Part shown: piece by piece, positions 12,622 to 61,945 of the stretch | How the letters are laid out: each line of letters starts with the position of its first letter | Numbering within the stretch: position 1 is the first letter of the stretch | Source of the DNA: Agapetus fuscipes | Taxonomy: Eukaryota; Arthropoda; Insecta; Trichoptera; Glossosomatidae | DNA length: 64,000 nt | NCBI GenBank assembly: GCA_951799405.1 | Contig: OX637334.1 | Location: 12,524,001 to 12,588,000, forward strand | Reading direction: 5' to 3' | The notes under the pieces: model-generated | Database searches by the model: none | Seen by the model: the letters and a program-made list of their open reading frames with translations, nothing else | Told to the model about the DNA's origin: nothing | Program-made: the position numbers and the translations under genes

Positions 12622-12976
12622 AATAACTATTAAAAGTTCCAAAAGTGCATAAAATCATTTTTATTTCCTCGTGAATTTTAAACTGTTCTTACAACATCAC
12701 AATTATAAGTTTTACAATTTGTTATCCTTGAGGTACTTTTTTCTAACATTTAAACTTCAGTTTCGTGTTATTTGTCTCAAAAGTTTGAAAGAATTTATTG
12801 TTGTAATTTAATTGTAAAAACTTCTACTTCCTCTTCTTTTTGGCAAAGTCTCACGGATACCAAGGCGCCAGTACCTAATCGTCTTCCTCTTCTTTGTGGC
12901 AAAACCACACGGATGACAGAGGCGCCAGTGTCCATTTACGAGTATATTGCAAATAATTAACTTATACACCTTTAAA

Positions 12977-13951
12977 ATGAAGTGCAATAAGTGTTTCAAC
13001 GACATAAGCCCAAAAAAAACTCTAAAGTGCTCGAGGTGCTATATGAGCTACCACCCGTCCTGCCAAGAGAAATCCTCTGACACCATCAAGAAGATGACTG
13101 CAAGGACTCGCTCTCAATGGGCTTGTAACACATGCAGAGTGGAGGACCCGAGAACCTCCAAGCCGGGCCCCACTCCATCTCCATGTGCAGTCTCTCACCC
13201 TGCAACAAGCTCACCACCTTCTTCTACAATCCATGTAGACAAGGTGATGAAGGCTCTGGAAGAGCTGCAGAGTAGATGTGCTGCTCTGGAGGGGAGGTGC
13301 AAGGATCTGGAGGCGGAGAGGAAGGTCTGCACGTGTAAGTGCGAAGAGAGGATTGATGACTTTGAACGTGCTTTGCAAACTAAGACACTCCTTCCAGAAT
13401 CTAAGGATGAAGAACTGGAGCAACTAAAGGCTAATGTTGTTCGTCTCACGCAAGAAAATGTTGATAGGGAACAATACTTGAGATCGCACAACATTGAAAT
13501 TACTGGTGTACCGGAGAATAAGGATGAGTCGTTAGGTGATATTGTTTCCAAAATTGCAGGAAAATTGGACATAAACTTTGAGATAAATGAGGTTAATTTT
13601 GCTCGTCGGGTTGCTGCCTGGAGTAATGAAAAAAAACCTTCAAAGATAGTTGTGCAATTTAAAAACCGAAGCCTCGTGGAAAATTTCTTAGCAGCCATCC
13701 GTAGAAGACGTGGCCTTAACATCAAGGATCTGGGTTTCCAAGGACAGGAGCACCGAATATACTTGAACTACCACTTAACACCAACAAACAAAAAACTCTT
13801 TAAACAGGTCAGGGAATTGGCCAAGGCCAAAGAGTACCAATTTGTGTGGATTAAACAATGTCGAATATATACCAGGAAAGATAGCAGTTCGAGGGCTATC
13901 CTTTTGTCAGAAACGAATCTGACCTTAAGAAGATATTCTGACTATTTATAA
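12977..13951 (+). CDS. LINE ORF1 protein: PHD-type finger, coiled coil, nucleic-acid-binding domain
   Basis: The frame opens at 12947, but the Met at 12977 sits right before the first zinc ligands and is the likely start. Residues 1-50 form a PHD-like finger (CNKCFNDI, CSRCYMSYHPSCQ, WACNTCR). A Pro/Ser-rich linker follows. Residues about 85-165 are a heptad-rich coiled coil (ALEELQSRCAALEGRCKDL). The C-terminal part (RSHNIEITGVPENKDE to FVWIKQCRIYTRKD) resembles the RRM-like and C-terminal domains of LINE ORF1 proteins. In the family it binds element RNA and acts as a chaperone during integration. ORF2 begins 247 bp downstream. No internal stops occur. Confidence 0.85.
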   Translation: MKCNKCFNDISPKKTLKCSRCYMSYHPSCQEKSSDTIKKMTARTRSQWACNTCRVEDPRTSKPGPTPSPCAVSHPATSSPPSSTIHVDKVMKALEELQSRCAALEGRCKDLEAERKVCTCKCEERIDDFERALQTKTLLPESKDEELEQLKANVVRLTQENVDREQYLRSHNIEITGVPENKDESLGDIVSKIAGKLDINFEINEVNFARRVAAWSNEKKPSKIVVQFKNRSLVENFLAAIRRRRGLNIKDLGFQGQEHRIYLNYHLTPTNKKLFKQVRELAKAKEYQFVWIKQCRIYTRKDSSSRAILLSETNLTLRRYSDYL

Positions 13952-14198
13952 AAAATACCCATCATATTGTTACGATTTGCTTTTCTTTTTCTTTTTCATT
14001 AGTGTCTTTTTTTCTCTATACATGTTACAGAGTTATGTTCTACACTTCTGTAATGATCGATTTTGTTATTAATTTGTCTACGACTACAACATCACTATCC
14101 ACCTCTCATATTCCAGTCCTTCTTACCTCTTTAGCAGCATCCATGGTTGCCCCATTAATACTCATTGAATTCTATTGTTTTTCTACACTTTCTCCACT

Positions 14199-17057
14199 AT
14201 GAACCTGATAACATACTACCAAAACGTCAGGGGTCTTAGGACTAAAACACATCTATTTTATAGCAATATTTTGTGCAATGATTTTGATATAATTTGCCTT
14301 ACAGAATCTTGGCTGAATGAAAATTTTTATGATCACGAACTCTTTGACAGCCGATACTGCGTTTACAGACTTGACAGAGATTACCATACAACTGAACAAA
14401 AATTGGGAGGAGGAGTCCTTATTGCGGTTAAGTCTAGTTTAACATCATCTATCAGAACGGGCTGGGCTTCAGACTCAAAAGCGGAAGAGTTATGGATAAC
14501 CATTACCTTGTCAACATCAATGAAATTGAATTTGTGCTGCGTATACCTGCCTCAGGGTCAAAACCACTCACAAAGACTAGGTAAGTTCTTTGAAAATGCA
14601 TCGCAACTAGTATTAAATAATGTAGATGACAAATTTATATTGCTAGGTGATTTCAATTTGCCTGGAATATGCTGGGAGCCGACAGATGAACCAAATTCTT
14701 TTAGTGTAACTAATCATAGTTCCCACGATTCCCCTATGATCGATTTCATGTCATTCACGGATTTCAAACAATATAACGGCATTACAAACGTCAATGGTCG
14801 AATACTTGACCTCATATTAAGTAACATTGAAAGTTGTAACGTGTCTCACTGCACAGACTCCCTGGTTAGTGAAGATTCTCACCACAAATCTTTACTGTTA
14901 CAACTTGACAATGTCAGCATTCCATACATAAAACTGGATCCGAGACGAGTAAAATTATTTTATAGAGCAAACTACGATCATATTAAACAGCATCTGGTAA
15001 ATGTTGACTGGGGTAGCATTCTTTCGGGTAAGACTATTGATGAAGCATTGGACCGTTTCTATGAAATTTTGTATCATTGTATACAACTGTTCGTCCCATC
15101 AAAAATACGTACAAGTTCTCAAAGATTTCCCGTTTGGTATTCACACCCATTGGTCAAAGTTATAAGGGAAAAACTAAAGGTTCATAAGAAATGGAAAAAA
15201 TCAGGCCTACTTCAGGACTATGATGAATATTCCTTACTTAGAGAACGCCAAAAAAAAATGCAACTCGAATGTTACAGAACCTTTATTAATAGAACAGAGT
15301 TAAATATTAAAAATGACCCAAAGAATATCCACAGCTACGTTAAATGTATGAAATCACAATCAGGTTTCCCACAAAACATGTATTATAAAAACACTGTAAC
15401 TAACGAAATGGAACAGGTATGCGAGATGTTCAGTGACTTCTTTCAGTCATCGTTTACATCGAGTGCTTGTCCAGTACCAGACGTGGTGAGCCCTGGAGAG
15501 ATTGATATCGCCCGCATTTCTTTTGAACCATCTGATATTTTGAAAAATCTCAAACAAATGGACTTGAATAAAAGTCCGGGCCCCGATGGAATTCCCCCGC
15601 TATTCATAGTTAAATGCGCAGAGGAATTGGTCGCTCCGCTTTCCATTTTATTTAATTTGTCATTTACAACTGGAGTATTCCCGGATACTTGGAAGAGATC
15701 CTTTGTAACTCCCATCCATAAATCGGGGCCAAAGCATAACGTAGAGAACTATAGGCCTATCTCCAAACTCTCCTTGTTCAGCAAATTGATGGAGAAAATC
15801 GTGGTAGAGCAACTGACTCCAGCGTTAAAGAGTTTTATTCTTCCAAATCAACATGGATTTTGTAAAGGCAGATCGGCTGACTCAAATTTGGTTGAATTCA
15901 CTGACTACTTACACAATTCAATGAGTGGTGGGGGACAGGTTGATGCCGTGTATACGGACTTCTCGAAAGCCTTCGACAAAATTAACCATGAAATATTAAT
16001 CCATAAGCTCGGGAGGTATGGAGTGCACGGCAACCTGCTACGATGGTTATCTTCTTACATTATTAATAGACTCCAAGCAGTAACGGTAGAGGGTAATACT
16101 TCTCCATTTCAACAATGTCCATCTGGCGTTCCACAGGGCTCACATTTGGGGCCTGTATTATTTATTTTGTACATAAATGATATTCAGCATTGTTTCAGAT
16201 CATCTTCTTTCTTGATCTATGCTGACGACATTAAAATATACAAAAGAATTAAATGCTCCAAAGATTCCGAACAACTTCAGTTTGATTTACAGAGTTTGTC
16301 CCACTATTGCTCAAGAAGTAGCCTATTTCTGAACGTTGCTAAGTGCTGCTCAATATCTTTTACTCGTCGCAATACCCCTTACTATTTTAACTATACAATA
16401 GACGGTATATCCCTTAGAAAGTGTAGTGAGGTAAAGGACTTGGGTGTTCTTCTGGACAGCAAAATGACGTACAGGGCTCATATCAATTGGAGAGTGAGTG
16501 GGGCCCTTAGGCAGCTGGGATTTATTCTGAGAATCTCTAAGCCATTTAAACTACTAAATACAATAAAATTGCTCTATTATACGTACGTAAGGACATGTCT
16601 GGAATATGCCACGGTTGTTTGGAATCCTCAATATACTACGTATATTGATAGACTAGAGAGGGTCCAGAACAAATTTTTAAAGTCTCTTAATTATAGATGT
16701 CGTGTCACATTTGACAACTACCGCCTTTCTGCCAAATATCATCAATTAATGACCTTAGAAAATAGACGTACCGTTACTGACATGAAATTTCTACATAAAA
16801 TAGTGAACAATACAATCGATTCACCCGACTTGCTTAAAAAAATTTTTTTGAACTGTCCCATACGACGAACTAGATCCTTGCTTACATTTAAACAACCTAC
16901 CTGTGCAACTAATTATTTACAGAGCGCATTCATATACCGGGCCTGCAATAACTACAATATTTTTTTTGTCAACATTGATCTGTGTAACACCACCATACTG
17001 CAATTCAATGAAGCTGTAAAAAGATCCCTTATGACAGCGGGGGCTCATGGGGTTTAA
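14199..17057 (+). CDS. LINE ORF2 protein: AP endonuclease and reverse transcriptase, intact
   Basis: The open frame runs from 14175. The Met at 14199 starts the endonuclease (ITYYQNVRGLRTK, CLTESWLNE, LLGDFNLPG, ILDLILSN, SEDSHHKSLL). The reverse transcriptase follows with SPGPDGIPPLFI, NYRPISKLSLFSKLMEKI, YTDFSKAFDKINH, SGVPQGSHLGPVLF and the catalytic LIYADDIKIY. The remainder is the C-terminal thumb and tail. It is about 950 residues, a usual length for the CR1/Jockey group. The protein nicks DNA and copies the element RNA at the nick. All catalytic residues I can place are present, so the product is potentially active. Calling CR1 rather than Jockey is uncertain. Confidence 0.93.
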   Translation: MNLITYYQNVRGLRTKTHLFYSNILCNDFDIICLTESWLNENFYDHELFDSRYCVYRLDRDYHTTEQKLGGGVLIAVKSSLTSSIRTGWASDSKAEELWITITLSTSMKLNLCCVYLPQGQNHSQRLGKFFENASQLVLNNVDDKFILLGDFNLPGICWEPTDEPNSFSVTNHSSHDSPMIDFMSFTDFKQYNGITNVNGRILDLILSNIESCNVSHCTDSLVSEDSHHKSLLLQLDNVSIPYIKLDPRRVKLFYRANYDHIKQHLVNVDWGSILSGKTIDEALDRFYEILYHCIQLFVPSKIRTSSQRFPVWYSHPLVKVIREKLKVHKKWKKSGLLQDYDEYSLLRERQKKMQLECYRTFINRTELNIKNDPKNIHSYVKCMKSQSGFPQNMYYKNTVTNEMEQVCEMFSDFFQSSFTSSACPVPDVVSPGEIDIARISFEPSDILKNLKQMDLNKSPGPDGIPPLFIVKCAEELVAPLSILFNLSFTTGVFPDTWKRSFVTPIHKSGPKHNVENYRPISKLSLFSKLMEKIVVEQLTPALKSFILPNQHGFCKGRSADSNLVEFTDYLHNSMSGGGQVDAVYTDFSKAFDKINHEILIHKLGRYGVHGNLLRWLSSYIINRLQAVTVEGNTSPFQQCPSGVPQGSHLGPVLFILYINDIQHCFRSSSFLIYADDIKIYKRIKCSKDSEQLQFDLQSLSHYCSRSSLFLNVAKCCSISFTRRNTPYYFNYTIDGISLRKCSEVKDLGVLLDSKMTYRAHINWRVSGALRQLGFILRISKPFKLLNTIKLLYYTYVRTCLEYATVVWNPQYTTYIDRLERVQNKFLKSLNYRCRVTFDNYRLSAKYHQLMTLENRRTVTDMKFLHKIVNNTIDSPDLLKKIFLNCPIRRTRSLLTFKQPTCATNYLQSAFIYRACNNYNIFFVNIDLCNTTILQFNEAVKRSLMTAGAHGV

Positions 17058-42945: not shown

Positions 42946-43519
42946 CTAGGCGGGGGCCTCCTGCTGCTCGCGCTGCTGGCGCCGCCGCTGCTTGCTCCAC
43001 AGCTCGTGGCAGTCCTGCCAGGTGGGCAGCGCGGGGCCCACCATGCGCTCCGGCACAACGCCCTCCAGCCACGCTGACTTTAGCGCGTCTTCTGCCGTAA
43101 TCCTGCGGTCAGGATCCAACTCCAGCATCTTGTCTAATAAGTCCAGCGCAGGGGCAGGCATGAAGCTGAAGTCTTCTCTCACTCGTCTCCGGTGGAACTT
43201 CTTTGGCTTTAGGGAGTTCCACAGCGGCAGCTTGACCACAGAGGGCCACACGGCGGGCGCCGGGGTCCCGCACAGCTTGGAGATCATCTCCAGCTGCATC
43301 ATCTCCACGGAGGCCTGGAACAGCGGGTGCTTGAGGAAGAGCTCCCCCAGGATGCAGCCGCAGGACCACACGTCTATGGCGGGCCCGTAGCGCTCCTCGC
43401 CCAGCAGCAGCTCAGGAGGCCGGTACCACAGCGTGATCACCTTGTTGGTGTAGGGGCGCTGACGGTCCTCCGCGTTGTACAGGCGAGCCAGTCCAAAGTC
43501 TGCTAGCTTCACCTCTCCC
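42946..43519 (-). CDS. Cdk12: Cdk12 terminal exon (kinase C-lobe)
   Basis: Cdk12 with cyclin K phosphorylates Ser2 of the RNA polymerase II C-terminal domain and supports transcription elongation. The exon encodes [20 protein letters not shown] with the DFG motif, the activation segment [20 protein letters not shown] with the T-loop Thr, and [17 protein letters not shown]. It continues with [20 protein letters not shown] and [20 protein letters not shown]. The basic tail after [16 protein letters not shown] is also a Cdk12/13 trait, since this family needs a C-terminal extension for activity. The stop is TAG at 42946-42948. The acceptor is ttgtag. The first base completes an Arg codon begun in the previous exon. 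Confidence 0.95.
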
Positions 43520-44729: not shown

Positions 44730-47269
44730 CACATTGTTTGCGGGAGACGCTTAAAGGCGTCTTTTCCATAACTGTTGTTAGAGAGCGGGGGACGCTTAAA
44801 AGCGTTTTTTTATTTGTGTACTGTTGGTAGAGCGCGGGAGACGCCTAAACGCGCTGACACTTAGAGTAACAACATATTACGAGAAACGTGTGATTCTTGG
44901 TTACTCTCTGAACTAAAAATTAGGCGCCAGCTCCTTTGAGACGTGTTATACCTGTACCGGGTACCTAAACCCGGCAATTCGTGGAATTAGGGTCGGGTGG
45001 CCGACTGTGGTCATAAAACATTCGCTTGAAAGCTGTAAGATAAACATTGCGTTTTTGTCTTTACATTTCTTCAGTGTTATAGCGATACTGTTTCGTTCAA
45101 GACGTTCTCCATTTTCGTTTCTGTCTACATTCTGCTTTAAAAATTTCGTATACAATACCTATCATTGTATGATATATTCGTAATCGATCGCTGTTGTGTT
45201 TAAAGTTTTTGTTACATATTTTTATTATAAAAAAATACCTTATAACAATGGATGAGAGTGACGGAGAATTGTGTGCTGATAATTTATCAAATTATTCTTG
45301 TGATAGTGACGTTGAGAAACATACAGATGATGAATTTGAATTTAGTGATGATGAAGTTACAGTGCGTCCCCAGACTTTTTTCCATCGAACAATTGAAAGC
45401 AGTTCGGATTCAGACTCAGATGAATATGAAGCAGAATGGTCATCGGCAGATAAAACACCAGTAATGGAAGAGTTTTTAGGTCGCCCAGGTATAAATACCG
45501 ATAATGCTCCTAATAGTGTAACGGAAGCAACAAATTTATTCATAGGAGAGGATTTTTTTACATTCCTTGTACAAGAATCAAACAGATATTATTATCAAAA
45601 TATCCACAAATTTAAAATCTACAAGAAATCTCTCAAATGGAAAGACATTACAATACAAGACATGAAGAAATTTTTGGGACTTATTATTCTTATGGGACAA
45701 GTCCGTAAGGACAGAAGAGACGATTACTGGAACACAGATGCGTCCACGGAAACACCATTCTTCGCAAAAACGATGAGCAGAGACAGATTTCGACAAATAT
45801 GGAGAGCTTGGCACTTCAATAACAATGAAAATATTGAAGATGGATCAGATAAGCTATGTAAAGTCAGACCAGTATTAGATTATTTCCTTCCGAAGTTTAT
45901 AAATGTTTACAAACCTAGACAGCAACTATCTTTAGATGAGGGTATGGTGCCTTGGAGAGGGAGATTATTCTTTAGAGTTTATAATGCTGCAAAAATTATC
46001 AAATATGGGATTCTCGTACGTATGGTGTGCGAAAGTACTACAGGCTACATATGCAATTTCGAAATTTATTCTGCTCAAGGACGAAAATTATTGGATACCA
46101 TAAAAACTGTTGTATCACCTTATACTGATCTATGGCATCATCTGTACATGGACAACTACTACAACAGTGTGGAAAATAGTCAAATACTTTTACAACATAA
46201 AATTCGAATTTGTGGCACGATTCGAAAAAATAGAGGATTGCCTGATTGCCTAAAAGTAACTAAATTGAATAAGGGAGAAGCGATTTTTCGAAGGAAAAAA
46301 GATGTTCTCTTACAAGTTTGGCAATCGAAAAGAGAAGTGTCTATAATTTCTACCATACATTCAGCAGAAATGCGAGAAAGTCACAGCATAGATTGGAAAA
46401 CTCGTGAGAAAATAGTGAAACCCAGCGCCATAATCGATTACAATAAATATATGAAAGGCGTTGATCGAGCAGACCAATATCTTTTGTATTATTCTATTTT
46501 ACGAAAAACCACTAAATGGACCAAAAGACTAGCGATGTATGTAATAAATTGTGCATTATTCAACTCATTTGTTGTGTACAATTCTGTAAAAGAAAGGAAA
46601 ATAAAATATAAACAATTTTTAAAGGACATCGCAGAGCACTGGGTGGCTGATCAGATATTGTCGGATGATATTCAAGACCCGGAACCAACACCATCAACAT
46701 CTGGTATCCGAAAAACATCTGTAAAATCAGATCCTCCAGGAAGACTTTCGATGGATATGAGAAAACATACATTGGAAAAGATTGAAGGCAACGGTAAAAA
46801 TAAGAATCTACGAAGGCGATGTCGTGTGTGCGCGGTCCACAAAGTGCGTAGCGAAACCCGGTATATGTGTAAATTCTGTGCTGTACCATTACATAAAGGG
46901 AACTGTTTCCAACGATATCATACTTTGAAACAATATTAGTGTTTATTGTTTTGTATTTTACAAAATATATATTTTGTTGACTGTGCATAAAATGACTAAA
47001 TCGACAATACGACAAAAGTGCAGTTTTTTCCAATGTTTTATATTTGACCTTGAATATTATATTTTTTTATCCAAAAACATTTACATTTGTGACCAGATAA
47101 TATTAGAAAATTTCATTTAAGGTAAAGTACTCAAAATTTTATTAAAATATGATCAATAGTTCAGAAGTTATAGCTGTTTTACGTGAAACGTAATTTGGCA
47201 CGCGAATCTGACAAAATTGCCCGCCTTACGGCGTGGATTAATAATATAAGCCCCCCCGCGAAAGATGTG
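44730..47269 (+). mobile_element. complete piggyBac-family transposon, 2,540 bp
   Basis: Flanked by TTAA at 44726-44729 and 47270-47273. The imperfect terminal inverted repeats are cacattgtttgcggg and the inverted form of cccgcgaaagatgtg (12 of 15 match). Three subterminal copies of a gggagacgcttaaa-like motif lie at about 44741, 44787 and 44836. It holds one intact transposase gene. It sits in a Cdk12 intron, antisense to the gene. Confidence 0.92.
45248..46939 (+). CDS. piggyBac-family transposase, intact
   Basis: The open frame begins at 45194. The Met at 45248 (MDESDGELCADNLSNYSCDS), at the acidic N-terminus, is the more usual start. Domains in order are the acidic N-terminal region (to about residue 75), then the DDE core. 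The core starts NIHKFKIYKKSLKW and LIILMGQVRKDRRDDYW. The catalytic Asp motifs are SLDEGMVPWRGRL, YMDNYYNSVEN and MKGVDRADQYL. The C-terminal Cys-rich finger is CRVCAVHKVRSETRYMCKFC and HKGNCFQRYH. The length of about 563 residues is normal for the family. The enzyme excises and reinserts DNA at TTAA without leaving scars. With no stop, complete ends and a TTAA duplication, the element may be active. Confidence 0.96.
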   Translation: MDESDGELCADNLSNYSCDSDVEKHTDDEFEFSDDEVTVRPQTFFHRTIESSSDSDSDEYEAEWSSADKTPVMEEFLGRPGINTDNAPNSVTEATNLFIGEDFFTFLVQESNRYYYQNIHKFKIYKKSLKWKDITIQDMKKFLGLIILMGQVRKDRRDDYWNTDASTETPFFAKTMSRDRFRQIWRAWHFNNNENIEDGSDKLCKVRPVLDYFLPKFINVYKPRQQLSLDEGMVPWRGRLFFRVYNAAKIIKYGILVRMVCESTTGYICNFEIYSAQGRKLLDTIKTVVSPYTDLWHHLYMDNYYNSVENSQILLQHKIRICGTIRKNRGLPDCLKVTKLNKGEAIFRRKKDVLLQVWQSKREVSIISTIHSAEMRESHSIDWKTREKIVKPSAIIDYNKYMKGVDRADQYLLYYSILRKTTKWTKRLAMYVINCALFNSFVVYNSVKERKIKYKQFLKDIAEHWVADQILSDDIQDPEPTPSTSGIRKTSVKSDPPGRLSMDMRKHTLEKIEGNGKNKNLRRRCRVCAVHKVRSETRYMCKFCAVPLHKGNCFQRYHTLKQY

Positions 47270-57861: not shown

Positions 57862-58638
57862 TCATTTGTCTATGGGGTAGCTGTACCCAATTGTCCGAGA
57901 ATTTGAGTTTATACTGTATAATTCCATCTGGAGTGTACTTAAGGCAAACAATATCCGTGACTGTTGGGTCTCCCTTCCAGGCCTTATGCTCGCATAGAAC
58001 CGGGGTTCAAACTTTAAGAAGTCATAGTAGGACAGTGAGAATGCTTTGTATGGTTCCGGGTTCTGTCGTGCCGATCTTATAACATGTGAGTACTCACTCG
58101 GGAGATAAATTTCCTTTCTGCGTCCCAACTTGCGCTCTATTGAGCTGTGGATCGAGTCTGCCTCCATTTGAGTATGGCCTACCTCAAGATATTTCCGTTT
58201 AATAATTACAGAATGTTTGGTTGCCAATACAAGGAGTGCGTTAGATAGCTTAATGTTGCGATTTTGGTAAGCACATCCGTCGCTCCATATAATAATGTTT
58301 GTTGGACTGTGCTTAGAAATTTCCTGCTCCAAGAATTTCGTTACTATCGAAGCAAAGACGTCACTCTCGAGGCCTCCCTCTCCCTCGTGCCATAAATAAT
58401 AATTTACATCTTTGTTGTTTAGATTATAGTACGTCAAATTATGAACTTTGAGTTTAGTTTTGTAATAATTAGCTGCAGAATTCAAACGTGGAGCTAACAG
58501 AACGGCTTGTAGGTCCACTGTGTAAACCAACATTTTGTTATTTCTTTGACATTCAGTTTTATCTTTATCTTTTTCTTTCCGTGCTTCTTCCTTCTTATGT
58601 ATTTGAGAGAGGTATGCTTGTTCCATCACTGAACCTAC
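57862..58638 (-). pseudogene. C-terminal part of a transposase-like protein, split by an LTR element
   Basis: The minus-strand frame of 255 residues shows KMLVYTVDLQAVLLAPRLNS, LTYYNLNNKDVNYYLWHEGE, the motif IIWSDGCAYQNRNIKLSN, YLEVGHTQMEADSIHSSIER and EYSHVIRSARQNPEPYKAFS. Proteins with SDxCxxQNRN and GHTQxEADSxHS are widespread in arthropods and behave like transposon genes. I recall them as DUF7869-type, but I cannot verify that name. The spaced acidic residues (VDLQ, SDGC, EADS) suggest an RNase H-like DDE fold; this is inference. The N-terminal part lies beyond the LTR insertion at 61615-61945. Confidence 0.7.
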
Positions 58639-58642
58639 ATAT
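58639..58642. repeat. target-site duplication ATAT, left copy (LTR element)
   Basis: ATAT here and at 61605-61608, directly outside the LTRs. A 4-bp duplication fits Gypsy-type integrases. Confidence 0.75.
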
Positions 58643-59097
58643 TGTTACGTTTTACCTGAGGTTCTTTTAATTAAAACACAAGTTCAACACAAGTTAGCCA
58701 TACAGTTTATTTACACAGACTTTCTGACAATAGATTTATTTTAACAGACTTATTTTAACAGATTTATTTTAACACACTTATTTATTTCGTACAGATTACA
58801 TTTATTTTACACCATATTGGTCGCCCTAGTAACTAGATATTCCTCTGTGTGAGTGCTTCGAAAGACTAACTCGCTCCAGCCGATTGTCGCCCTTCCTATA
58901 GCGGAACCTAGGGGCCATTCTAGCCGGCCCTAGAAAGTTCCACTACCACAGTTGTTTAGACGATTCTGGACATATTTATTTCTCGAAGAGTCCATTTCCT
59001 ACCTACATACACACCTTACAACTACAATCGTCTGGGCCAGAACATTCTCTCAAAACACACGTACACCAATAAGCATCTACCAGTGTATTTCGTTACA
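58643..59097 (-). repeat. 3' LTR (455 bp)
   Basis: On the plus strand it starts tgttacg and ends cgttaca. It is nearly identical to 61161-61604, differing by three substitutions and one 11-bp tandem duplication (acaagttcaac-type) present only here. Confidence 0.95.
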
Positions 59098-60804
59098 TTA
59101 TCCCCCCCTTAGGCTGTTTCGCCCCGGAACAGTCTTTTCTTTAAGAAGGTACGGGCAGTTTGACCCACGGTTGCATCCAGTGGTCAGGAAAAATGACGTT
59201 CCACGGATTTCTCCCCTTAGGCTTTTGCCCGTCATTGCTGGCTGGTGTGGGTGGGGGTGCTTTCCTTTTGGCGGCCGGCATGGGCGCCTTTCCTTGGTTG
59301 GGGGCGCCGCCTTGCGTCCCCGGTCGGCCACCGCTCCTCGGCTCCGCTTGCTCGCCGGCTCCTGCGTCAAAGGATCAGAATCCTTGGTCGTCGGAGCCGC
59401 TCTCCTGCTCGGAAGCGGAGTTCTCACTCTCGCTCTCGTCCTCTGACTCGCTGGGTGGCTTCCTGCCGCGCCCTGCTTGGGTCGTCCCTTCTGCTTGCTC
59501 TGCTTGGCTGAGCCCCTGCGGGCGGGGGCGCGGCGCCTGCGGGAGGGAGCGCCCCCCTCCCCCACTGACGGGTCAAAGTCAGAGTCCGCCTCCTGTCCGG
59601 AGCCACTCGGGTTGTAAGAGCCATCTGAATCCCCTAATTCATCCCTGCTGACTTTGGGTCCCCGCACTTTGGTTTCCAGATCTTTTTCATACTCCTCGTT
59701 AGAGTAACCTCTCTTGACAATAGCAGCAGCGGACCTTCTGGGCCTGCCTCCCGTGGCCTCGCCGCGGTCAGTCACCGGCCTCTCCTTCATCAGCCCCCTG
59801 GCGTGCGAGGAGGCCAGCTTTGGCAGCAGCAGGAAGCCCACCACCCTGCTGGCCAGCTCCGTGGGCGCGCCCCTCTTGTCCAAGCCCAGCTTCTCGCACA
59901 GCGTCCGCAGCTGCTTGGGCTCCAGCTTATGCACCTCCTCCAGCTTGGACTTGTGCTCAGACGTGTCCTTCTCAAACTCGTAGCCCTTGAACTTCTTTTT
60001 GTTGCGCTTGATGAGGTTCGTGCGGCACAATTGATTGTACAGGAACTTGAGGTCCTCCATCTTGAACCTGGAGATGGCCACCTCCACGTCGGGGATGTGG
60101 TCGATGGGGATGCCCCGGCCCGCGGGCACGGGCACCGGCGGCTCCACGGCCTTCTTCTTCTTGGGCGCCTCCTCCACGGCCTCCTCCGCCTTCTTCTTGG
60201 GCGCGGGCTTCTTCTTCACACTGTTGGCCTTCTTGGCCTTGCCCTTCTTGTCCTTGGCGTCCTCATCCTCCTCCTTGGCGTCCGTCTCCTCCTTCGCATC
60301 CTTGTCAGCCTTTACCTCGGCCGAGTCACTCTTGCCGTTTTCAGCCGACTTGACATCGTCTTTGTCATCTTTGCTGTCAGCTGCGTCCTCAGCCTTGAGC
60401 TGGCCGTTGTTTTTGGCCTTCAGGTCTCCCTTCCCCAACTCCTGAGACGACTCATCCTCAGTTGACATATCGGCCTTTTTGTCATCCTGATTATCACTTA
60501 ATTTTACACTATCAGTGTCCAACGACATTTTTAAGGCTAGGTTTTTAGCCATCTCCTCCTTCCAGCCAGCCAGGTCTTCCCTCAAGCTCTTGAAGTTGGC
60601 AGCCATCTTTGTTTTAAACGCTTCCAGGGCTCTTCTTCCTAACAGCAGAACGAACGCACTAGGATTTTCGCCCGCGTTTTCTAAGGCTTCCATCAAACGC
60701 GCCTGCAGGGTTGCTTTCAGTCCCGAAGAATCCAGATCTCTCTCAGCCAATTCCTCCTTCAATTCCACCACTTTTAAATCTTTTATATTCACAAATTTTG
60801 CCAT
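59098..60804 (-). CDS. Dek: gag-DEK chimeric protein encoded by an LTR retrotransposon
   Basis: The open frame begins at 60846. The Met at 60804 (MAKFVNIKDLKVVELKEELA) is the likely start. Counting from 60846, residues 19-55 are a SAP motif as found at the start of some insect Gypsy gag proteins. Residues to about 110 remain gag-like (FKTKMAANFKSLREDLAGWK). From about 118 the composition turns GC-rich and acidic/Lys-rich (MSTEDESSQELGKG). Residues about 235-345 match the conserved SAP-like core of DEK, a chromatin and histone-binding protein: AGRGIPIDHIPDVEVAISRF, FKGYEFEKDTSEH, LCEKLGLDKRGAPTELASRV. Near residue 458 the DEK reading slips out of frame, and the last part is out-of-frame DEK plus element sequence. 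The stop TAA (59098-59100) touches the LTR. The DEK C-terminal domain is missing. DEK introns are also missing, as expected of a copied mRNA. Confidence 0.88.
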   Translation of the reverse strand: MAKFVNIKDLKVVELKEELAERDLDSSGLKATLQARLMEALENAGENPSAFVLLLGRRALEAFKTKMAANFKSLREDLAGWKEEMAKNLALKMSLDTDSVKLSDNQDDKKADMSTEDESSQELGKGDLKAKNNGQLKAEDAADSKDDKDDVKSAENGKSDSAEVKADKDAKEETDAKEEDEDAKDKKGKAKKANSVKKKPAPKKKAEEAVEEAPKKKKAVEPPVPVPAGRGIPIDHIPDVEVAISRFKMEDLKFLYNQLCRTNLIKRNKKKFKGYEFEKDTSEHKSKLEEVHKLEPKQLRTLCEKLGLDKRGAPTELASRVVGFLLLPKLASSHARGLMKERPVTDRGEATGGRPRRSAAAIVKRGYSNEEYEKDLETKVRGPKVSRDELGDSDGSYNPSGSGQEADSDFDPSVGEGGAPSRRRRAPARRGSAKQSKQKGRPKQGAAGSHPASQRTRARVRTPLPSRRAAPTTKDSDPLTQEPASKRSRGAVADRGRKAAPPTKERRPCRPPKGKHPHPHQPAMTGKSLRGEIRGTSFFLTTGCNRGSNCPYLLKEKTVPGRNSLRGG

Positions 60805-61160
60805 TTTTTTTGTTTTGTTAGAAGAAGAAGAATTTACTTTTAACAAATTATTTTACAAAAAAAAATATTTTTAAATTTCAAATAATGATATTAGATAATG
60901 ATTATTTACTTTGCTTCGTCAGATCGGCTAATGAGTATTTACTAACACTAACACAATATTATTAACACGTTATCTATGCACACTTCAATCAAATTTTTAG
61001 CGGGTAACCACACAATCGTTTTTAATTCAAGTTTAATCAGTTTTATTTAAAACTCTTTTTTTATTCATCAGTTTTTATTATGTTGTCCAGATATATTTTT
61101 TAATAGTCTCAAGCACAGTTTTTACTTGGTACTTGGTTTTAAACTTCACACCGACACCAT
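60805..61160 (-). other. 5' leader of the LTR element with primer binding site
   Basis: A plausible primer binding site, tggtgtcggtgtg (minus strand, about 61147-61159), starts one base inside the 5' LTR. The matching tRNA was not identified. The rest is an AT-rich leader. Confidence 0.65.
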
Positions 61161-61604
61161 TGTTACGTTTTACCTGAGGTTCTTTTAATTAAAACACAAG
61201 TTAGCCATACAGTTTATTTACACAGACTTTCTTACAATAGATTTATTTTAACAGACTTATTTTAACGGATTTATTTTAACACACTTATTTATTTCGTACA
61301 GATTACATTTATTTTACACCATATTGGTCGCCCTAGTAACTAGATATTCCTCTGTGTGAGTGCTTCGAAAGACTAACTCGCTCCAGCCGATTGTCGCCCT
61401 TCTTATAGCGGAACCTAGGGGCCATTCTAGCCGGCCCTAGAAAGTTCCACTACCACAGTTGTTTAGACGATTCTGGACATATTTATTTCTCGAAGAGTCC
61501 ATTTCCTACCTACATACACACCTTACAACTACAATCGTCTGGGCCAGAACATTCTCTCAAAACACACGTACACCAATAAGCATCTACCAGTGTATTTCGT
61601 TACA
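61161..61604 (-). repeat. 5' LTR (444 bp)
   Basis: Starts tgttacg and ends cgttaca on the plus strand. It has the same sequence as 58643-59097 without the 11-bp duplication. As the 5' LTR of a minus-strand element it should hold the promoter. Confidence 0.95.
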
Positions 61605-61608
61605 ATAT
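61605..61608. repeat. target-site duplication ATAT, right copy
   Basis: Matches 58639-58642. Confidence 0.75.
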
Positions 61609-61945
61609 TTTGTATTATGAACAGGTGTTGCACTGATCTTTTTTAGGGGTCCATATATCTAGATTTAGACGTCTGAAAATTCTAAAAAATGTCGACCATG
61701 AAGCTTCTTTTTTATTGTCGTCTTTGCATTTCGATACATACACAGAGTAGACTTGCCTGCAGATGTTCCAAATTGGCTCCAGATAGTTTTTTGAAGATGA
61801 TGGATGCCCTGCAGTAGTGTGGCTCAACTTTCGGCAACGAAACCAGAAAATCTTCAACACCCTTTTTACACATGATATTATTATTGTGTTGTACAGGATT
61901 CACCACATTAGACCCTTCAACAGGATTCTCTATTTTCCATCTCAA
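61609..61945 (-). pseudogene. N-terminal part of the split transposase-like protein
   Basis: Two overlapping minus-strand frames read EDFLVSLPKVEPHYCRAS and, after a shift near 61800, KNYLEPIWNICRQVYSVYVS, CKDDNKKEASWSTFFRIFRR and LNLDIWTPKKDQCNTC. The text up to the C-x2-C pair fits the region just before the part at 57862-58638, which resumes with AYLSQIHKKEEARKEK. A frameshift and a TAA show that the gene was already decayed, or decayed after the LTR insertion. Confidence 0.65.

Follow-up and report, generated by a model that had tools for sequence, protein, structure and literature searches.

An LTR element with a gag-DEK reading frame

The DNA analysed here is a stretch of 64,000 nucleotides from the trichopteran Agapetus fuscipes (contig OX637334.1, positions 12,524,001 to 12,588,000), referred to as the window hereafter. 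At 58643-61604 its minus strand carries a pol-less long terminal repeat (LTR) element of 2962 bases, in which most of the coding sequence of a host chromatin-protein gene, DEK, is fused to the start of gag. The features of the element are as follows.

58639..58642, no strand: target-site duplication ATAT, left edge of the element
58643..59097, minus: 3′ LTR, 455 nt
59101..59110, minus: polypurine tract AAGGGGGGGA, preceding the 3′ LTR
59144..59241, minus: non-DEK 3′ segment; another frame reads ...WNVIFPDHWMQPWVKLPVPS and a stop
59242..59481, minus: exon blocks 8-9 of DEK, in which indels change the frame; homology stops exactly at the end of host exon 9, without DEK_C
59482..60528, minus: in-frame part of the captured DEK, 349 codons counted from the DEK start codon, intronless
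60529..60535, minus: bases CTTAAAA of the DEK 5′ untranslated region (UTR), read through between gag and DEK
60532..60804, minus: gag N-terminus, 91 aa, SAP domain and a long helix (low-confidence prediction)
60805..61150, minus: AT-rich 5′ leader; its 3′ end and the gag head are shared with a gag-pol copy on contig C27
61151..61159, minus: primer-binding-site-like sequence TGGTGTCGG, one base past the 5′ LTR
61161..61604, minus: 5′ LTR, 444 nt; 40 scored genome matches from 1110 first-look candidates
61605..61608, no strand: target-site duplication ATAT, right edge of the element

The two LTRs are identical at 441 of 444 aligned bases (three mismatches, plus one 11-base gap), and TG...CA ends, the target-site duplication, the primer-binding site (PBS) after the 5′ LTR and the polypurine tract (PPT) before the 3′ LTR are all present. 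The PBS-like sequence is one that we take to be tRNA-Leu-like. The sole open reading frame (ORF) runs on the minus strand from the ATG at 60804 to the stop at 59098-59100 and encodes 568 aa. No pol ORF or domain was found in the 2.96 kb, and thus the element is not autonomous; its open gag-DEK frame also sets it apart from terminal-repeat retrotransposons in miniature and large retrotransposon derivatives, the internal regions of which are non-coding. An earlier note, made from the letters of this DNA alone, had described the near-identical LTRs, the PBS-like site, the purine tract, the 4-bp duplication and a single ORF without pol, and this description holds throughout. The note had further assigned residues 1-117 to a SAP-domain gag. 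The domain is there (Pfam SAP, residues 7-42, E = 1.1e-12), while the assigned extent was too long: gag accounts for residues 1-91, and DEK begins at residue 93 with its own ATG (60528). The segment at 59144..59241 is probably a remnant of the end of pol, an assignment made without comparison to a gag-pol 3′ end. Structure models were of low quality (mean predicted local distance difference test scores, 58.6 and 49.9) and were set aside.

The DEK identity of the remainder, also proposed in the note, was highly significant. Five lepidopteran DEK proteins match the ORF with E values of 3e-63 to 3e-52, chains of human DEK in PDB align with residues 168-343 and 168-344 at E values of about 1e-12, and the SAP/SAF DNA-binding core that characterizes the DEK family is recognizable in the sequence. 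The lepidopteran N-terminus MSGDTDKAKISDNQDEDKK aligns to the element residues MSLDTDSVKLSDNQDDKK; therefore, the fusion contains DEK's own ATG, and residues 1-91 are additional to DEK. The DEK frame is kept up to about residue 441 (59482), and the rest, to 59242, is partly in the wrong frame. The DEK_C domain (PF08766) is absent from the ORF, and the host exon encoding it lies downstream of the captured part. A protein search with the DEK core, in which 2 of 1827 candidates passed, both known beforehand, gave no closer donor. Of the 28 columns that differed in a shared-state test, the element had the human DEK state in 4 (P = 0.10), and one of five control proteins (P0004) did so in 3 of 6.

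The donor gene

The species' own assembly (618 Mb, 148 contigs) was searched for the parental gene. A DEK_C peptide found a single place, C11:946574-946732, with 94% identity, and this place belongs to a multi-exon DEK gene (L065, C11:946500-956400; L075). The element has nine exon blocks of this gene, with the introns between them missing, and in eight of the blocks the DNA is 91-96% identical: 94% for exon 1, 96.2, 94.8, 93.6, 91.0 and 95.0% for blocks 2 and 4-7, respectively, 94.4% for block 8 and 95.5% for block 9. The acidic exon 3 is 76% identical, with gaps. At the exon edges of the host gene, GT follows the exons, and AG precedes most of them. Since the blocks match so closely and the introns are gone, the captured template was a spliced host DEK mRNA. 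A host gene with introns, identified in the genome, is thus present in the element in spliced form, which is what defines the transduction of a cellular gene, and the intronless capture suggested earlier from the ORF alone has its multi-exon parent.

The homology begins in the DEK 5′ UTR, just ahead of the start codon, and stops precisely where host exon 9 does. The gag/DEK junction accordingly falls in the DEK 5′ UTR, and an older copy (L071) has a longer gag and the common stretch ACAGA[A/G]CTCTTAAAAATG at its junction. The element bases past the exon 9 homology had no 10-base match further along the host DEK gene. Within the captured part, 12 bases coding LHQF are lost, the acidic repeats are shorter, and frame-changing indels lie past residue 441. 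The frame first changes where block 7 meets block 8; there the element seems to fuse two similar stretches (CCAAGC[A/G]GGG) instead of the splice sites. A native DEK locus with a gag-like first exon had been named as the finding that would overturn the capture; exon 1 of the host gene begins MSVDTDSVK, and as far as the locus was read no gag-like first exon was found, the end of gag giving no significant match in the roughly 9.7 kb ahead of exon 1. DEK was captured as a spliced transcript and joined in frame to gag.

A young, dispersed family

The DEK part of the element has at least 116 scored matches (from 541 first-look candidates), which are 96-100% identical and lie on 32 contigs; the number is a lower bound, two further copies (L009 and L010) are absent from it, and the ranking by protein score biases the matches to intact copies. 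They cover DEK residues 1-349 (two start at residue 2), and a stop occurs in one of the 116. The further gag-DEK copies that the earlier note suggested looking for therefore exist. Fifty-two copies were read. The LTR search supplied L009 and L010, and the DEK search supplied L011-L040 and L044-L063, the window copy being L011; the nested copy on C33 described below, L066-L071, L073 and L074 stand outside this set. Both LTR ends were found in 47 of the 52, and 46 of these 47 have identical 4-bp duplications (26 ATAT, 8 GTAT, 6 ATAC, 3 CTAT, 2 ATAA and 1 GTAC). The target centre is TA in all 47. The LTR pair is mismatch-free in 37 of the 47, and 36 of these are also gap-free. No pairs of copies with similar 5′ flanks were found, L009 and L010 having too little flank for the comparison. 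The insertions are thus repeated and dispersed, and gag-DEK is a high-copy, recently active LTR family in which many insertions are very young. The LTR matches L003-L007 look like solo LTRs.

The copies are not uniform. Two main gag heads exist: over about 200 bases (window 60633-60825), the window copy and a C9 copy (L010) have only 49-60% DNA identity, while their in-frame DEK parts are 98.4% identical, and for this swap, recombination with a different gag lineage is the best explanation. ORFs of 651-665 aa were found in 7 of the 52 copies (L013-L015, L017, L019, L030 and L063), a form that has been amplified; a tandem duplication in the DEK tail was seen in L015. Open frames of 575, 545 and 587 aa occur in L031, L039 and L051, respectively. 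L039, considered as a third gag head, proved to be a copy interrupted at its 5′ side. A copy on C33 with an LTR spacing of 5980, considered as an autonomous element, was likewise rejected, being a gag-DEK copy with other elements nested inside; among these nested elements (L041-L043) is an ORF resembling a zinc-finger transposon protein.

Relatives carrying gag and pol

The 91-residue gag head gave 150 scored places in the genome from 1352 candidates. The identity of this part as gag came from these genomic relatives, after a protein database search with the gag part in which none of 355 candidates passed; scans of viral contigs for relatives, made with the ORF, with the gag part and with the beginning of an LTR, gave none. 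Older forms of the family (L069-L071) retain a longer gag ahead of DEK (...AKNLAEKMTNLKEELEEKPTGLEETVAKGTELLK), and with this longer gag as the query 150 places were scored from 1090 candidates. Among the 147 matches listed, 6 span all or almost all of the query, a further 30 (E below 1e-8) reach near the DEK junction or diverge throughout, and 111 are short (E about 5e-4), the pattern expected from gag-DEK copies. Of the 30, thirteen belong to open frames 440-460 aa long, and four to frames of 1266, 1273, 1390 and 1674 aa. The one of these four that was partly read, in two pieces, is the 1390-aa frame on C27. Its gag start is the same as that of the element (MAKFVNIKDLKVVELKEELAERDLDSSGQK...), it is 89% identical to the end of the leader and the gag head of the element (window 60907-60621), and it contains RVT_1, RT_RNaseH_2 and RT_RNaseH domains and a YLDD motif. 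As the same gag start thus stands ahead of reverse transcriptase and RNase H, the head of the fusion is gag, and a gag-pol relative exists. From these sequences, a relative of the C27 type is a probable kind of helper for the gag-DEK elements.

Two results weigh against a simple pairing of helper and element. One is that, in the stretch that was read, the C27 LTR and the gag-DEK LTR share just 76-78% identity. Another is that no gag-pol copy with a near-identical LTR was found among the followed hits of the 40 LTR matches: these hits (the window pair, L003-L008 and pairs on C5, C9 and C33) turned out to be either gag-DEK copies or what look like solo LTRs. The earlier note had expected the element to spread without a pol of its own, which the copy number and the relative with the same gag head bear out; the autonomous relative with the same LTR that it sought was found as to the gag head and not as to the LTR. 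The parent gag-pol element was probably of the Ty3/gypsy type. The 4-bp target duplication would fit that type.

Beside the gag-pol relative (L077, C27:4661150-4662050), immediately beyond its LTR match, 40 bases are 90% identical to the DEK part of the element. This relative has possibly inserted beside or into a gag-DEK copy.

Origin of the fusion and the fate of its DEK part

Based on the donor gene, the copies and the relatives, we consider the window element to be a copy of a recently active, non-autonomous LTR family with a captured, spliced host DEK, with a probability of about 0.93. Template switching, mobilisation in trans by gag-pol relatives, expression of the fusion and a role of its protein are what we infer beyond this. 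During reverse transcription of a gag-pol element, the polymerase would have switched from the element RNA to a co-packaged spliced DEK mRNA, and the switch would have replaced most of gag and pol by DEK exons 1-9. The resulting chimera would keep the LTRs, the PBS, the leader, the gag start and the PPT, so that helpers could package, copy and integrate it in trans. A transcript from the LTR should encode a Gag(SAP/helix)-DEK fusion.

Whether this fusion does anything for the element is a separate matter, on which the information on substitutions may provide a clue. For the window copy against the host gene, the proportion of synonymous differences (pS) is 0.119 and that of nonsynonymous differences (pN) is 0.031, a ratio of 0.26 over six exon pieces; three other copies gave 0.23, 0.26 and 0.30. 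If the branch rates were equal and the element branch neutral, a ratio of about 0.5 or more would be expected, and thus the lower values suggest some constraint after capture, on the assumption of equal branch rates. Within the family, the ratio of nonsynonymous to synonymous diversity (piN/piS) is 0.83 (47 copies). Among the shared variants, 20 of 29 are nonsynonymous (P = 0.21-0.59; 0.69-0.77 expected without selection), among the singletons 21 of 37 (P = 0.005-0.09, by mutation model), and among both together 41 of 66 (P = 0.005-0.16); 50 of the 52 copies in this test were ranked by protein score, which biases them to conserved proteins. In the first 349 DEK codons, no stop occurs in the 52 copies, and the deletions total multiples of three in each copy, in an alignment from which insertions relative to the window copy were dropped. 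In a neutral simulation of 60 runs, the frame stayed stop-free in 35% at 0.02 substitutions per site, in 10% at 0.05 and in none at 0.1.

One explanation, which we hold at about even odds, is that the DEK insert is passive cargo: the family would spread as a short element with all the cis signals and a strong helper, and the protein would be idle. The piN/piS value and the near-neutral shared variants are consistent with this, as are the several different C-terminal ends that the amplified copies carry and the frameshifted DEK tail of the window copy and of the relatives compared with it. The low pN/pS against the host gene argues in the other direction, and so do the scarcity of stops (none in the 52 copies and one in the 116, sets ranked by protein score except for two copies) and the rarity of stop-free frames in the simulation at 0.05 and above.

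The competing explanation is that the fusion is useful: through the common N-terminus it would join helper Gag assemblies and bring the nucleosome binding of DEK to integration or to anti-silencing. DEK binds nucleosomes, the gag head and the DEK core are in frame across the copies read, and the recent copy number is high; the constraint suggested by the low pN/pS and by the absence of stops in the 52 copies also points this way. However, the shared variants carry no signal of selection, DEK_C has been lost, and unequal branch rates could partly yield the low pN/pS. We regard a useful fusion as somewhat doubtful. The more specific scheme, in which gag-DEK co-assembles with helper Gag and helps the element to reach chromatin, choose its sites or evade silencing, with the parasite outgrowing its helper as a result, is unlikely.

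An ancient, independently diverged gag-DEK family was also considered, since the DEK core of the element is only 58-61% identical to the five lepidopteran DEKs, which are 81-89% identical among themselves; this low identity initially suggested an old capture. A different reading, a divergent donor captured recently, was favoured by the GC content at third codon positions, which is 0.92 over about residues 151-350, against 38.5% GC for the whole window. The host gene has settled the matter: the main core exon of host DEK is equally divergent from the lepidopteran proteins (52-54%), against about 91%, and up to 94%, for its DEK_C exon, and the element matches it at 91-96% in eight of nine blocks. 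A long-lived family is thus ruled out, and this explanation retains hardly any probability. A domesticated host retrogene merely lying between two LTRs, which an open ORF with a chromatin domain might suggest, is just as improbable in view of the at least 116 matches on 32 contigs, the fresh LTR pairs with target duplications and the finding of no copy pair with similar flanks.

Relation to known systems

Oncogene-carrying acute retroviruses have a host coding sequence fused to gag, are defective and depend on helpers. The gag-DEK element resembles them in these respects, as far as this general comparison goes, and differs in having no env or infectivity and no known effect on cells and in multiplying in the germline genome. 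Among the genomic parasites of animals, it seems to be a natural equivalent of the acute-transforming retroviruses.

Among plant elements, Bs1 of maize is presumably pol-deficient. According to PMC13317346, Bs1 is an early known transducing LTR element that, like gag-DEK, has cellular gene sequence in a hybrid gene. Unlike Bs1, gag-DEK is an animal element in which most of the coding sequence of one chromatin protein is fused to gag, with more than 100 copies and, in the copies read, mostly mismatch-free LTR pairs. The route proposed here is the same as that of LTR-mediated retroposition by template switching, in which, according to PMC5408686, which cites Tan et al. 2016, an mRNA is packaged with LTR RNA, a chimeric cDNA forms at a microsimilarity, and integrase inserts it. 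The products described there are retrocopies; gag-DEK propagates itself as a family, and internal deletions, a tandem duplication and an exchanged gag head have arisen in it later. Another comparable case is Pxyfem, the LTR-linked PxyMasc retrocopies on the W chromosome of Plutella xylostella, for which template switching was inferred and in which host gene cDNA is likewise joined to gag-like LTR-element sequence; PMC9674220 describes W-linked tandem clusters with no recognisable LTRs and with silencing RNAs. The gag-DEK family differs from it in its intact LTRs, target duplications, open gag fusion and dispersed copies. In a survey of eight lepidopteran species (PMC11675541), retrotransposition events were mediated mainly by non-LTR elements. 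A literature search for a retrotransposon-captured DEK in Lepidoptera returned no paper, which is a weak test of its absence from print. The mechanism of LTR-mediated retroposition is thus known, and it is the scale, the recent activity and the fusion of gag to a chromatin protein that are unusual.

The donor gene, the junctions, the intermediates with longer gag, the at least 116 copies and the gag-pol relatives occur together in one assembly. As a result, how retroelements capture genes, depend on helpers and exploit host chromatin proteins can be put to a direct test. Young gag-DEK insertions may be polymorphic within the species.

Neighbouring features of the window

The insertion adjoins, in its downstream flank, an ORF with a DUF7869 domain that probably stems from another mobile element. 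With the element removed and its flanks brought together, the ORFs of the two sides (57862-58629 and 61615-61860, minus) face each other but are out of frame; thus, if they were once one gene, it was probably already broken. Elsewhere in the window, an open 581-aa ORF at 45194-46939 (plus) contains a DDE_Tnp_1_7 (piggyBac-type) transposase and zinc-finger domains. At 12947-17057 (plus), adjacent ORFs encode a Baculo_FP protein (334 aa) and an endonuclease/reverse transcriptase (960 aa), and this is probably a non-LTR retrotransposon, the first ORF of which has a baculovirus FP-like domain. Finally, a fragment of a CDK-like protein kinase, possibly a host exon or a retrocopy, lies at 42946-43512 (minus).

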